DNA of 64,000 nt, from contig NZ_CP039291.1 in NCBI RefSeq assembly GCF_004798685.1, forward strand, positions 3,286,001 through 3,350,000, written 5' to 3'. Below the pieces are notes generated by a model. It saw nothing but the letters and a program-made list of their open reading frames with translations. It had not been told where the DNA came from and did not search any database. This DNA comes from Cellulomonas shaoxiangyii. GTDB lineage: Bacteria; Actinomycetota; Actinomycetes; Actinomycetales; Cellulomonadaceae. This document shows, piece after piece, positions 3,436 through 22,865 of the stretch (positions are counted from its first letter, which is position 1; each line of letters opens with the position of its first letter). Made by a program: the position numbers and the translations under genes.

Positions 3436-4463
3436 GCGTCCTCCTGCGGCGACGTGCCGCCGTCGTCCTGCCCGTCCGGGCCCGGGGACCCGGTTCCGTC
3501 GTCAGGGTCCAACGCGGTGGGGCCGGCGTTGATGCCCGCGAGCGCGTCCAGGACCCGCTCGGCCTCCGCCGGGCCCAGGAGGCCCGCCGCGAGCGCCCGC
3601 GACGTCGCCGCGCGGGCCAGGGCACCGTACCCGCTGGGCACGTCCACCGCGCCCGTCGCGGCCCCCAGTGCGGCGAGGGTCACAGCGTGCTCGTGCACGG
3701 TCCCCGCGTCCCCGCGGCGCACCGGGCCCGTGAGCGCGCCGATCGCGCCGGGCCCGTCCGCGCCGGTGGCGTCCTCGGCGCGCAGCGCCCCGTCGAGGGC
3801 GGCGTCGAGCAGCGGGCGCAGCACGCGGCCCGGCTCGGCGACGCCGGCCGCACGCAGCGCCTGCGACGCCTGCGCCACGAGGACGACCAGGTGGTTCGCC
3901 GCGTGCGCGAGGCCCGCGTGGTACAGCCCGCGCGCCCCCTCCGCGAGGACGACGGGCTCCCCGCCGACCTCCACGACGAGCGCCTGACCGATCGGCAGCA
4001 CGGGTGCGGGTGCGGTCACCGCGAACGCGCAGCCGACGAGCCGCGCGAGGTCGAGCGACGTGCCCGTGAACGTCATGGCGGGGTGCAGCGCGAGCGGGAT
4101 GACCCCCGCGGCGCGCGCGGGCGCGAGCACGTCCACCCCGAAGCGCCCCGACGTGTGCACGACGATCTGCCCCGCCTGCCAGCGGCCCGTCTCCGCGAGC
4201 CCCCGGACGAGCCCCGGCAGGACGTCGTCCGGGACGGCCAGCAGCACGAGCTCGCTGCGCCGGACGACCTCCGGCACGTCGACGACCGGTACCCCCGGCA
4301 ACAGCGTGGCGGCCCGCTCGCGGGACTCCTGGGACACCGCGCTGACCGCGACCACGGGGTGCCCGGCGCCGCGCAGCGCGTTGCCGAGCACCGCGCCCAC
4401 GCGGCCCGCCCCGACCACGCCGACCCCGAGGCGCCCGGGGCGGGCGGCGGGGTCGGCGCTCAC
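3432..4463 (-). CDS. Rossmann-fold DUF2520 protein
   Basis: This 343-residue protein has an N-terminal dinucleotide-binding fold (VVGAGRVG at residues 16-23) followed by a helical domain of the DUF2520 type, with ALHPAMTF and [15 protein letters not shown] as recognisable blocks. The arrangement resembles ketopantoate reductases and F420/NADP-dependent oxidoreductases, but no substrate has been assigned to the family as far as I know. It overlaps panC by four bases, and this neighbour relation suggests a role in pantothenate metabolism, possibly pantoate supply; that is inference. The GTG start at 4463 overlaps the upstream PH-domain gene. The C-terminus is an acidic, disordered tail. Confidence 0.85.
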
Positions 4464-19760: not shown

Positions 19761-19999
19761 CCCGCGGTGGTCCCAGGAGAGAACATCTGTCACAGACGTC
19801 CCAGTAGTCACACCGCTGTGCTTCGGGAGGAACCCGGACAGACCCTCTGGGCCGTCCGGGTGAACCGGGTCGCCGCCGGTGCGGGGCGGCGTCCGCACCG
19901 GCCTCCCGCGGCCGTCGCCGCGGGGTGGACGGCGCGGGGCGCGGACACCTCCCCGTCCGAGGGGCGAGACGGCCGTACCGGCAGGCGGGACGATCGGCC
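19761..19999 (+). other. Intergenic region with clustered hairpins
   Basis: This gene-free stretch between the NlpC/P60 gene and the metY promoter holds three strong stem-loops: CCCGGAC/GTCCGGG (19833-19839 with 19854-19860, the loop itself able to form CCC-TCT-GGG), a perfect 10-base stem at 19875-19884 with 19893-19902, and CCCGCGG/CCGCGGG (19905-19911 with 19918-19924). The first is framed by GGGAGGAACCC and GGGTGAACC. It could hold terminators or a structured RNA; I cannot match it confidently to a known riboswitch. Confidence 0.45.
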
Positions 20000-20005
20000 T
20001 ACTCT
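20000..20005 (+). promoter_or_regulatory. Putative metY -10 element TACTCT
   Basis: TACTCT ends seven bases before an ATG at 20013, the same spacing as at leaderless genes elsewhere in the window. It would start the metY-metX transcript about 200 bases upstream of metY. Confidence 0.5.
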
Positions 20006-20012
20006 CGGCCAC

Positions 20013-20036
20013 ATGTCCCGCCGAATGTGTCGCTGA
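20013..20036 (+). CDS. Leaderless seven-codon leader peptide upstream of metY
   Basis: A tiny frame encodes MSRRMCR and then TGA. It begins exactly seven bases after a TACTCT -10 hexamer, so it would sit at the very 5' end of the metY transcript and be translated without a ribosome site. It contains a Met codon and a Cys codon just before the stop. Leaderless cysteine-containing short ORFs that act as attenuators of sulfur genes have been described in mycobacteria, so this may sense Cys or Met supply by ribosome stalling. Downstream, GGCGCCGG (20134-20141) can pair with CCGGCGCC (20181-20188) close to the metY ribosome site. No expression evidence is available. Confidence 0.5.
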   Translation: MSRRMCR

Positions 20037-20208
20037 CCAGCGCACGCTCGGCCGTACCCGCGGCCGGTCGCCCCGGCGGCCGCCCGCCGAGCCCCGGCTC
20101 GTCCCGTGCGCACCACGACCCCCCCGCGGGGCGGGCGCCGGCAGCGCGCTCCTCGGGTGCCCCGCCCGACCGCCGGTCCCCCGGCGCCGTCCCCCAGGAG
20201 CCCGTCCC

Positions 20209-21528
20209 ATGAGCAACGAGAGCTGGAGCTTCGAGACCCGCCAGATCCACGCGGGCCAGACCCCCGACGCCGCCACCGGCGCGCGCGCCCTGCCGATCTA
20301 CCAGACGACGTCGTTCGTCTTCGACTCGCCGAAGCAGGCGGCCGACCGGTTCGCGCTCGCCGAGCTCGGCCCGATCTACACGCGCATCGGCAACCCCACG
20401 CAGGAGGTCGTCGAGAACCGGATCGCGGACCTCGAGGGCGGCGTCGGCGCGCTCCTGGTCGCGTCCGGCCAGGCGGCGGAGACGCTCGCGATCCTCAACG
20501 TCGCCGAGGCCGGCGACCACGTCGTCGCGAGCCCGTCGCTCTACGGCGGCACGTACAACCTGCTGCACTACACGCTGCCCAAGCTCGGCATCGAGACGAC
20601 GTTCGTCGCCGACCCCCACGACCCGCAGGCGTGGCGCGACGCGGTCCGCCCGAACACCAAGCTGTTCTTCGCCGAGACGATCCCGAACCCCAAGGCCGAC
20701 GTGCTCGACATCGAGGCCGTCGCGGGCGTCGCGCACGAGGCCGGCGTGCCGCTCGTCGTGGACAACACCGTCGCGACGCCGTACCTCGTCAACCCGCTGC
20801 AGTGGGGCGCCGACGTCGTCGTGCACTCGGCGACGAAGTACCTGGGCGGGCACGGCACCGCGATCGGCGGCGTGATCGTCGACGGCGGCACGTTCGACTA
20901 CGCGCAGCACCCCGACCGGTTCCCGAACTTCAACCAGCCGGACCCGTCGTACCACGGGCTCGTGTTCGCCCGGGACCTCGGCGTCGGCGGCGCGTTCGGC
21001 GCGAACCTGTCCTACGTCCTCAAGGCCCGCGTGCAGCTCCTGCGCGACCTGGGCCCCGCCCTCAGCCCGTTCAACGCGTTCCTCATCGCCCAGGGCATCG
21101 AGACGCTGTCGCTGCGCATGGAGCGGCACGTCGCGAACGCCCAGAAGGTCGCGCAGTGGCTGGAGGCCCGCGAGGACGTCGTGCGCGTGCACTACGCGGG
21201 CCTCGAGTCGAGCCCGTGGCACGCGAACCAGCTCAAGTACGCCCCCCGGGGCGCCGGCGCGGTCCTCGCGTTCGAGCTCGAGGGCGGCTCCGCGGCCGGC
21301 CAGGCGTTCGTCTCGGCGCTCGAGCTGCACTCCAACGTCGCAAACATCGGTGACGTCCGCTCGCTCGTCATCCACCCGGCGTCGACGACGCACAGCCAGC
21401 TGACGCCGGCCGAGCAGGAGCTGTCCGGCGTCACGCCGGGCCTCGTCCGCCTGGCCGTCGGCATCGAGCACGTCGACGACATCCTGGCCGACCTGGACGC
21501 CGGCTTCCGCGCCGCCAAGAGCGCCTGA
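20209..21528 (+). CDS. metY: O-acetylhomoserine sulfhydrylase MetY
   Basis: MetY is a PLP enzyme that makes homocysteine from O-acetylhomoserine and sulfide. The 439-residue product has the Cys/Met-metabolism family signature with the PLP lysine in HSATKYLGGHG, the LVASGQAAETLA phosphate-binding segment, and the C-terminal SLVIHPASTTHSQL block, which is typical of sulfhydrylases. Start: ATG 20209 with CAGGAG nine bases upstream. metX follows after 29 bases, giving the complete direct-sulfhydrylation branch. The long leader with a possible attenuator suggests control by sulfur amino acids. Confidence 0.96.
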   Translation: MSNESWSFETRQIHAGQTPDAATGARALPIYQTTSFVFDSPKQAADRFALAELGPIYTRIGNPTQEVVENRIADLEGGVGALLVASGQAAETLAILNVAEAGDHVVASPSLYGGTYNLLHYTLPKLGIETTFVADPHDPQAWRDAVRPNTKLFFAETIPNPKADVLDIEAVAGVAHEAGVPLVVDNTVATPYLVNPLQWGADVVVHSATKYLGGHGTAIGGVIVDGGTFDYAQHPDRFPNFNQPDPSYHGLVFARDLGVGGAFGANLSYVLKARVQLLRDLGPALSPFNAFLIAQGIETLSLRMERHVANAQKVAQWLEAREDVVRVHYAGLESSPWHANQLKYAPRGAGAVLAFELEGGSAAGQAFVSALELHSNVANIGDVRSLVIHPASTTHSQLTPAEQELSGVTPGLVRLAVGIEHVDDILADLDAGFRAAKSA

Positions 21529-21557: not shown

Positions 21558-22865
21558 ATGACGACGCCCCGCCCCCGCCCCGGCACGCCCGCCGCGCACG
21601 ACGCGTCCCCCGGACCCGTCGCGACCGGTGGCGCGATGCCGGGCGGGTCGGACGTCGCCGGCCTGCCCGGGGTCGGGCGGCGCACCCGCCGCGGCGCCAC
21701 CCTCGGCACCCGCCGGCCCGCCCCGGACGTCCCCGTGCCCGCGAGCGCGGCGTGGCGCGACGGCGACCCCGTGGGCCGCCGGCAGTTCGCCGACCTCGGG
21801 CCGTTCGCGCTCGAGTCGGGCGGCCGGCTGCCCGCCGTGCGGCTCGCGTACGAGACGTGGGGCGAGCTCGACGAGGACGGCGGCAACGCCGTGCTCGTGC
21901 TGCACGCGCTCACGGGCGACTCGCACGTCACGGGCCCCGCCGGGGAGGGGCACCCGACGCCCGGCTGGTGGCAGTCGATGGTCGGCGCGGGCGCACCGAT
22001 CGACACCGACCGCTGGTTCGTCGTCGCCCCCAACGTGCTCGGCGGCTGCCAGGGGTCCACGGGCCCGGCGTCGACCGCGCCCGACGGCCGCCCGTGGGGC
22101 AGCCGGTTCCCGCTGCTGACCGTGCGCGACCAGGTGGCCGCCGAGGTCCGCCTGGCCGACCTGCTCGGCATCGACCAGTGGGCGCTCGTCATCGGCGCGT
22201 CCATGGGTGGGCAGCGCGTGCTCGAGTGGGCCGCCTCCGCGCCCGACCGCGTCGAGGCGTTCGCCGCGATCGCCACGTGCGCGCAGACCGGCGGCGACCA
22301 GATCGCCGGCTTCCACACCCAGCTCAGCGCGATCGCCGCCGACCCGCGGTACCGCGACGGCGACTACTACGGCGCGGCCGACGGCGACGGGCCGCACGTC
22401 GGCCTCGGCATCGCCCGGCAGATCGCGCACCAGACGTACCGGTCCGCCGCCGAGCTCGACGAGCGGTTCGGGCGCATCCCGCAGGGCGCGGAGGACCCGC
22501 TCGAGGGCGGGCGGTTCGCCGTGCAGTCCTACCTCGACCACCACGGGGACAAGCTCGCCCGACGGTTCGACGCGAACACGTACGTCACGCTGACGCGGTC
22601 GATGATCACGCACGACCTCGGGCGCGACCGCGGCGGTGTCGAGGCCGCGCTCGCCCAGGTCACGGCGCGCGGGCTCGTCGTCGCCGTCGACTCCGACCGC
22701 CTCTTCCTGCCCGCGCAGTCCGAGCGCGTCGCCGCCGGGGTGCCCGGTGCGGGACCGGTCCGGTACGTGCGCTCGGCGTACGGCCACGACGGCTTCCTCA
22801 TCGAGGAGGACCAGGTGGGCGCGCTCGTCACGGACTTCCTGCGCGAGGGCGCGTCCCACCACTGA
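21558..22865 (+). CDS. metX: Homoserine O-acetyltransferase MetX
   Basis: MetX activates homoserine with acetyl-CoA, giving the substrate of MetY. The 435-residue alpha/beta-hydrolase-fold enzyme has the nucleophile serine in IGASMGGQ, the acid in VAVDSDRLFLP and the histidine in YGHDGFLIE. The family blocks LHALTGDSH and NVLGGCQGSTGPAS are present. The first 65 or so residues are a Pro/Arg/Gly-rich, probably disordered extension longer than in most homologues. GAGGAG lies nine bases before the ATG. It is co-transcribed with metY. Confidence 0.95.
   Translation: MTTPRPRPGTPAAHDASPGPVATGGAMPGGSDVAGLPGVGRRTRRGATLGTRRPAPDVPVPASAAWRDGDPVGRRQFADLGPFALESGGRLPAVRLAYETWGELDEDGGNAVLVLHALTGDSHVTGPAGEGHPTPGWWQSMVGAGAPIDTDRWFVVAPNVLGGCQGSTGPASTAPDGRPWGSRFPLLTVRDQVAAEVRLADLLGIDQWALVIGASMGGQRVLEWAASAPDRVEAFAAIATCAQTGGDQIAGFHTQLSAIAADPRYRDGDYYGAADGDGPHVGLGIARQIAHQTYRSAAELDERFGRIPQGAEDPLEGGRFAVQSYLDHHGDKLARRFDANTYVTLTRSMITHDLGRDRGGVEAALAQVTARGLVVAVDSDRLFLPAQSERVAAGVPGAGPVRYVRSAYGHDGFLIEEDQVGALVTDFLREGASHH

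Follow-up and report, generated by a model that had tools for sequence, protein, structure and literature searches.

How are metY and metX controlled in Cellulomonas shaoxiangyii, and does a seven-codon open reading frame ahead of them take part? The two genes lie within the window analysed here, a stretch of 64,000 nucleotides. A sequence-only reading of this DNA had proposed that the upstream ORF (uORF) encodes a leaderless peptide, MSRRMCR, that attenuates the genes in response to cysteine or methionine. The gene identities behind that proposal are sound: metY scores 775.9 bits against NCBIfam NF005872 (cut-off 703) and metX 507.7 bits against NF047917 (cut-off 475), and the best named matches of the window's metY are in Cellulomonas and Actinotalea. 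The letters are also as described, with TACTCT followed by seven bases and then an ATG; the frame reads ATG TCC CGC CGA ATG TGT CGC TGA, and the distance to metY, put at about 170 bases, is 172 nt from the stop to the metY ATG (Table 1).

We consider it likely that the metY-metX leader is a ribosome-mediated attenuator. Comparison of related sequences largely supports a real, conserved, translated-looking attenuator leader upstream of metY, whose signal would be cysteine and/or methionine.

Table 1. Features of the metY-metX region in the window
Feature	Position	Strand	Basis
-10-like hexamer TACTCT	20000..20005	+	Sequence; TANNNT 6 or 7 nt from in-frame ATG in 96/96 uORF leaders
uORF MSRRMCR and stop, probably leaderless, core R-M-C plus stop	20013..20036	+	Sequence, conservation, covariance-model matches
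Segment 1, 5′ strand of hairpin P1, within uORF	20020..20034	+	92% standard pair cells; strand nearly constant
Segment 2, AGCGCACGCTCGGC, complementary to segment 1	20039..20052	+	GCRCAC core in 95/96
Segment 2 core GCGCACG, complementary to segment 3 as well	20040..20046	+	Alternative-pairing comparison
Segment 3, CGTGCGC, alternative partner of segment 2	20105..20111	+	77/93 leaders, compensatory pair types
Candidate anti-Shine-Dalgarno GCTCCT	20148..20153	+	MFE pairing with 20196-20201; complement tracks SD across species
metY Shine-Dalgarno AGGAGC	20196..20201	+	Sequence, fold
metY, O-acetylhomoserine sulfhydrylase	20209..21528	+	NCBIfam NF005872, TIGR01326
metX, homoserine O-acetyltransferase, second gene	21558..22865	+	NCBIfam NF047917

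Conservation of the Upstream ORF

The pattern of TANNNT, 6-7 nt, ATG and a short ORF (ATG and stop separated by 2-11 codons) has a single occurrence in the 64-kb window, counting both strands, and that occurrence is MSRRMCR. In 60 dinucleotide shuffles the mean was 0.067, and no occurrence had a Cys codon. Conservation is the stronger test of the uORF. Upstream DNA of metY was taken from named loci, of which the best 80 of 575 were used, and also from the genus set, where 75 of 81 genomes contributed; the other six were omitted because the metY match was not full-length or lay at a contig edge. Once duplicates were dropped, 140 distinct regions were left. An ORF of the type ATG...ATG TGY...stop is present in 96 of these regions and absent from 44.

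The constancy of ATG-TGY is by choice, because it belonged to the search expression; the -10 box and the preceding CGA did not. CGA comes before ATG-TGY in all 96 leaders, and TANNNT lies 6 nt (44 leaders) or 7 nt (52 leaders) from the ATG, the start picked in each leader being the closest one in frame that has TANNNT 5-8 nt upstream. The distance from ATG to CGA is 9 nt in 84 leaders and 12 nt in 12, with no other value, and insertions consist of whole codons only. Codon 2 varies freely, the codon preceding CGA is CGC, CGT, TGC or TGT in 93 of the 96, the Cys codon alternates between TGT and TGC, and codon 7 is free (R, S or C upstream of metY; P or W upstream of metX). The TGA stop has become TAG in three loci (L254, L255 and L282). 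Most peptides (64) have one Cys; 31 have two and one has four, so that at least two Cys codons are present in 32. The codon-sized indels, the TGA/TAG and TGT/TGC exchanges and the extra Cys codons suggest that the uORF is translated. It is probably leaderless, to judge from the -10 spacing of 6-7 nt, with a transcription start at or adjoining the ATG. This comparison of related Micrococcales, which had been suggested as a check on the sequence-only reading, finds the -10-like box, ATG, Cys codon and stop all kept in 96 of the 140 regions.

Genera with the uORF are Cellulomonas, Actinotalea, Pengzhenrongella, Isoptericola, Puerhibacterium, Cellulosimicrobium, Oerskovia, Demequina and Sanguibacter, together with one record labelled Sphaerisporangium. 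Three of the 44 regions without it belong to the genus set (L091, L140 and L154) and have at most 54 nt of upstream sequence each; two others are shortened (L027, 160 nt; L075, 112 nt). The remainder come from other lineages, among them Arthrobacter, Pseudarthrobacter, Brevibacterium, Janibacter, Microbacterium, Kribbella and Miniimonas.

Exclusive Pairings in the Leader RNA

Segments 1 and 2 form the two strands of hairpin P1, in which 92% of cells are paired across 70 distinct sequences. Covariation analysis of P1 gave no signal, and 59 of 500 shuffles reached the observed percentage paired; the test is uninformative because the strand is nearly invariant. Pairing within P1 can explain the invariant CGA. 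The GCRCAC core of segment 2 (AGCGCACGYTCGG) starts 1-6 nt past the uORF stop in 95 of 96 leaders; the usual segment 2 is missing from Sanguibacter L041.

Segment 3 offers segment 2 a different partner, and the 1:2 and 2:3 pairings are mutually exclusive, since both use segment 2. A 7-nt Watson-Crick 2:3 match is found in 77 of 93 leaders, compared with 3.5% of shuffles (L041, L141 and L149 were dropped from this set, segment 2 being absent or the leader short). In relatives, segment 3 lies mostly 50-134 nt upstream of metY (35 nt in L041). Compensatory GCACACG/CGTGTGC occurs in two lineages (Cellulosimicrobium L023 and L130); the L024 and L134 leaders, which are similar, carry GCGCACG/CGTGCGC. 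A further compensatory type, GCGCACC/GGTGCGC, is found in L083. Exceptions among 94 pattern-located leaders are CGTGCAC in four, the wobble form CGTGCGT in two, CGTGTCG in two (Demequina), CGTGCGA in two, and GCGCACC opposite CGTGCGC in two and AGTGCGC in one; for seven of the 94, what the pattern met first is probably something other than segment 3, and L002 has no segment-3-like match. A permutation test on 13 distinct 2:3 types gave p of about 0.02, related sequences not being independent. Folding of the whole leader is unremarkable (z = -0.83).

The sequence-only reading had assigned control to a different hairpin, between GGCGCCGG (20134-20141) and CCGGCGCC (20181-20188). Both blocks are present at these positions, but among the 44 of 96 leaders in which a homologous block could be located the 8-nt complement occurs in one, the window's own, and this hairpin is ruled out as a conserved switch. 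What survives of the earlier attenuator proposal is a probably leaderless Cys mini-ORF with attenuator-like RNA downstream.

Proposed Mechanism

Transcription would begin at or beside the ATG, and a 70S ribosome would start on the 5′ end of the mRNA and translate MSRRMCR. When charged Cys-tRNA (probably Met-tRNA too) is ample, the ribosome would reach the stop codon, mask segment 2 and depart; after its release segments 2 and 1 would re-pair, leaving segment 3 free and the leader OFF. When Cys (or Met) is scarce, the ribosome would pause once codon 6 (or 5) occupies the A site, masking segment 1 and not segment 2, and 2:3 could then form and metY-metX be expressed. We infer that transcription is leaderless and that the ribosome pauses, and likewise which way control runs and which signal it answers. 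The output would most likely be masking and unmasking of the metY Shine-Dalgarno (SD) sequence, which is the least certain step.

If the ribosome is assumed to cover about 15 nt, counted from the first base in its P site, stalling while Cys6 occupies the A site puts the footprint edge at about 20040 and leaves segment 2 exposed; a ribosome on the stop codon masks segment 2. Folding of 93 leaders under such ribosome masks gave a mean P(2:3) of 0.05 for free RNA, 0.52 at the Cys codon and 0.0002 at the stop, contrasts that are partly a product of the mask itself. The window's own leader counts against the model, with a P(2:3) of just 0.09 at the Cys stall, because its segment 3 is predicted to pair elsewhere. 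A single Cys codon, which is all that most of these peptides have, would classically count as a weak sensor.

Output of the Switch

SD masking is kept as the likeliest output only because, within a species, the SD agrees with its complement upstream. In the window's MFE fold GCTCCT pairs base by base with AGGAGC. In a closer subset, made up of 40 of 47 eligible sequences, a GCTCC-like block stands opposite the SD, its letters, read by eye, often tracking those of the SD (GCTCCTC/GAGGAGC, CTCCG/CGGAG and CTCCTG/CAGGAG are examples). The best complement of the SD averages 5.9 nt in a species' own leader and 5.3 nt when leaders are swapped, with a maximum of 5.57 in 300 permutations (n = 96, relatedness not removed). 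Predicted SD accessibility shows no change across ribosome states in the ribosome-mask folding (0.31, 0.33 and 0.31), and a second folding test gave 0.33 against 0.32, with 20 leaders up and 12 down of 92.

This unresponsive accessibility is one reason to consider that the same uORF sensor and 1:2/2:3 switch act instead through Rho- or pause-dependent premature termination in the C-rich leader, an output that we give an appreciable though less than even chance. The leader shows no U-tract terminator, and from 40 nt past the core all 96 leaders have more C than G (mean 46% against 30%), a bias that keeps Rho in play; Rho is proposed for mycobacterial cys leaders in a passage of PMC1262725. The greater length of the SD complement in a species' own leader argues the other way and favours SD masking.

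The Amino Acid Signal and metX Copies

A reading in which methionine, or both amino acids, is sensed rather than cysteine is less likely than not. It draws on Met5, as constant as Cys6 in the 96 leaders (ATG-TGY being, again, part of the search expression), on methionine as the product of the operon, on the geometry of a stall at codon 5, which likewise exposes segment 2, and on metX copies with the peptide MTRRMRS, which retain Met without Cys. Extra Cys codons in 32 of 96 peptides, set against extra internal Met in none, point to cysteine; and the MTRRMRS copies may be decaying, because metY has shed its leader where they are found.

A separate metX can bear its own uORF: G487 and G494 encode MTRRMCP and G482 MTRRMCW, the gene being metX by NCBIfam. 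In G337, G488 and G493 a TACGGT box lies 6 nt ahead of metY and the leader ORF is missing there, while the copy at metX, MTRRMRS, has lost the Cys codon (metX was identified by NCBIfam in L249 and L250 and by eye in L178). In three loci (L298, L299 and L301) metY itself looks leaderless (TACGGT, 6 nt, ATG), as if the attenuator had been lost and the promoter kept; this start lies about 40 nt upstream of the conserved TRQIHAG.

Distribution among Relatives

At E<=1 a covariance model of 54 positions (R1) matches 37 of 39 relatives, though the weak matches are probably chance. Its matches number 56 among 394 genomes of the class at E<=0.1, most of them weak, and 57 among 297 genomes of the order at E<=0.001. 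The order matches fall in families f1 (19), f9 (12), f59 (10), f13 (8), f17 (4), f12 (2), f3 (1) and f5 (1), those of f59, f12 and f3 being counted by the R1 model alone. The f5 match (L163) is within a coding region and was rejected as chance, and the f17 matches inspected are a second leader, treated below. Among the 22 loci L262-L283, 21 run into metY, and the remaining one, L277, reaches the end of its contig. In genus g16, R1 matches 16 of 18 genomes at E<=0.05, and 15 are metY or metX leaders by inspection; the matches in G491 look like chance. No R1 match was found in the g16 genomes G484 and G489, and no close metY in G484, G489 or G491.

A DNA operator formed by the inverted repeat CGAATGTG...CACGTTCG, just past the transcription start and with the ORF incidental, is very improbable. 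Both arms are strongly conserved and symmetric, and the repeat adjoins the promoter; however, a distance of 1-6 nt from the stop to the second arm would rotate the half-sites on the helix, the codon-sized indels, stop exchange and Cys enrichment require translation, and segment 3, about 50-134 nt upstream of metY, tracks segment 2. Scarcely credible is a chance ORF, or a hairpin or peptide conserved without regulatory role: the uORF has seven codons only, but it is found in 96 of 140 distinct regions, with R1 matches in several families of the order and a pattern chance rate of 0.067 on average in shuffles.

Riboswitches and Known Leader Peptides

Two sets of 20 loci, picked to span genera, were scanned against Rfam at gathering thresholds. 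None of the 20 uORF loci (18 of the 96, with L284 and L286 of g16) has a match. A SAM-IV riboswitch is found in 10 of 20 uORF-less loci drawn from the 44, five directly upstream of metY (L039, L050, L071, L073 and L074) and five downstream of it. SAM-IV (RF00634) thus takes the same slot upstream of metY as the attenuator, but it is a ligand-binding aptamer. The downstream copies (L043, L048, L049, L057 and L061) are at about 3915-4094; after metY in Arthrobacter-type loci, SAM-IV would presumably lie upstream of metX and perhaps controls that next gene separately. The window itself, scanned at gathering thresholds, yields only a tRNA and no riboswitch, and 19850-20300 at E<=5 yields only mir-610 (14.6 bits against 90).

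The closest known kind is the mycobacterial polycysteine leaderless attenuator. A 2020 paper by Canestrari et al. reportedly demonstrates, by its title, Cys attenuation through such polycysteine leaderless short ORFs of mycobacteria. The resemblance to mycobacterial Cys leader ORFs, already drawn in the sequence-only reading, is supported: these are leaderless, as the metY uORF probably is, and short, have Cys near the stop and lie upstream of sulfur-metabolism genes. They differ in their Cys clusters, upstream of cysA2, nirA and others, whereas the metY leader has mostly one Cys in a fixed R-M-C core; the Cys-codon run that marks the mycobacterial attenuators is not seen in these peptides, 64 of 96 having a single Cys. 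The 1:2/2:3 segments, set against these ORFs, are a feature of the metY/metX leader. Precursor data, with a proposal of Cys attenuation for mycobacterial leaderless short ORFs, are found in part of Shell et al. (2015; PMC4633059).

Candidate leader peptides of cys operons were described in Mycobacterium, Propionibacterium and Bifidobacterium (Seliverstov et al. 2005; PMC1262725); their Cys codons come just before the stop, upstream of actinobacterial sulfur genes, as in the metY leader. That paper reports neither conserved terminator hairpins for its cys leaders nor any RNA structure conserved ahead of methionine operons. In Streptomyces lividans, according to a section of PMC8079986, the metNIQ leader metL (...RCMCRRMCAF and stop) is leaderless, as the metY uORF probably is, with C-R-R-M-C near its end upstream of methionine genes; it differs in its 29 codons, in preceding metNIQ and in being assigned to methionine. 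A pattern for Streptomyces-type homologues, TGYCGNCGNATGTGY, was rejected: it matched 90 of 197 class genomes, but many control matches were found too. Six of its places were inspected among the matches listed; three are in long ORFs, L292 is without an in-frame start, and L291 and L296 have only a GTG start and no -10-like box.

The Mycobacterium tuberculosis ilvB leader, as presented in part of PMC13236596, also uses a uORF stall to pick between exclusive RNA pairings; unlike the metY leader, it serves branched-chain amino acids and has an intrinsic terminator with a U-tract. The Corynebacterium ilvB leader attenuator similarly has a uORF in the leader and concerns branched-chain amino acids, as stated in an excerpt of PMC10272879. 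No metY leader in this bacterial group is described in the relevant portions of PMC1262725, PMC8079986, PMC13236596 and PMC4633059, and a search by title and start of abstract found no publication on one among the matches listed, subscription papers being mostly outside its coverage.

If the proposed mechanism is true, this is a very small attenuator, with seven codons, no 5′ UTR and a switch of three short segments, and leaderless Cys attenuation reaches past mycobacteria to metY and metX. A riboswitch and a translated sensor would then interchange in one slot, making SAM sensing and tRNA-charge sensing comparable on the same enzyme. The natural variants MTRRMCP, MTRRMCW and MTRRMRS, and metY without a leader, would be ready-made tests.

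The R-M-C Core Elsewhere and Related Elements

The core pattern YGYCGAATGTGYNGCTGA occurs in 16 of 394 class genomes, the window's genome (G000) among them; a control pattern gave 0 among the matches listed. Thirteen of the 16 are in family f17, where the core forms the end of a leader with 32-33 codons (MTDNAR...MCCRMC[RS] and stop) with a predicted start codon. The f17 leaders are in L192-L204, at about 1500. A similar protein follows in 12 of the 13 loci, and no ORF was found within reach in L194. The protein of L199, the only one scanned, has a C-terminal part like OmpR/PhoB-type response regulators, below family cut-offs; the 33-aa f17 leader itself has no NCBIfam match. Two further YGYCGAATGTGYNGCTGA candidates, L205 and L206, look like chance.

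We offer, as an unlikely but broader idea, that R-M-C-x-stop (CGA ATG TGY NNN stop) might be a portable actinobacterial sensor cassette, reporting Cys and Met charging together through one codon pair and occupying, in Cellulomonadaceae and relatives, the slot that SAM-IV fills in others. Equally speculative is its extension across unrelated leaders, those of metY, metX, the f17 winged-helix regulator and S. lividans metNIQ (...CRRMCAF and stop, from the cited section on metL).

Many relatives (such as L023, L010 and L254) have an inverted repeat like GTCTCGC-ATC-GCGAGAC ahead of the uORF, close to the -35 region. It precedes metX copies as well, and the window's copy is degenerate. The strict form of this palindrome, GTCYCRCATNNYGRGAC, is present in 13 of 96 leaders; as a regulon marker it was set aside, with four places in three of eight genomes. 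The repeat is possibly an operator that would give the promoter a second control.

Nine Pseudarthrobacter/Arthrobacter loci (L043, L047, L053-L056, L059, L060 and L076) carry TACG[TG]T, 5 nt and a GTG opening the frame VA[AT][RK]PSCSQA and stop. This frame, seen only among close relatives, lies about 270-400 nt upstream of metY and is possibly another leaderless Cys-containing ORF.
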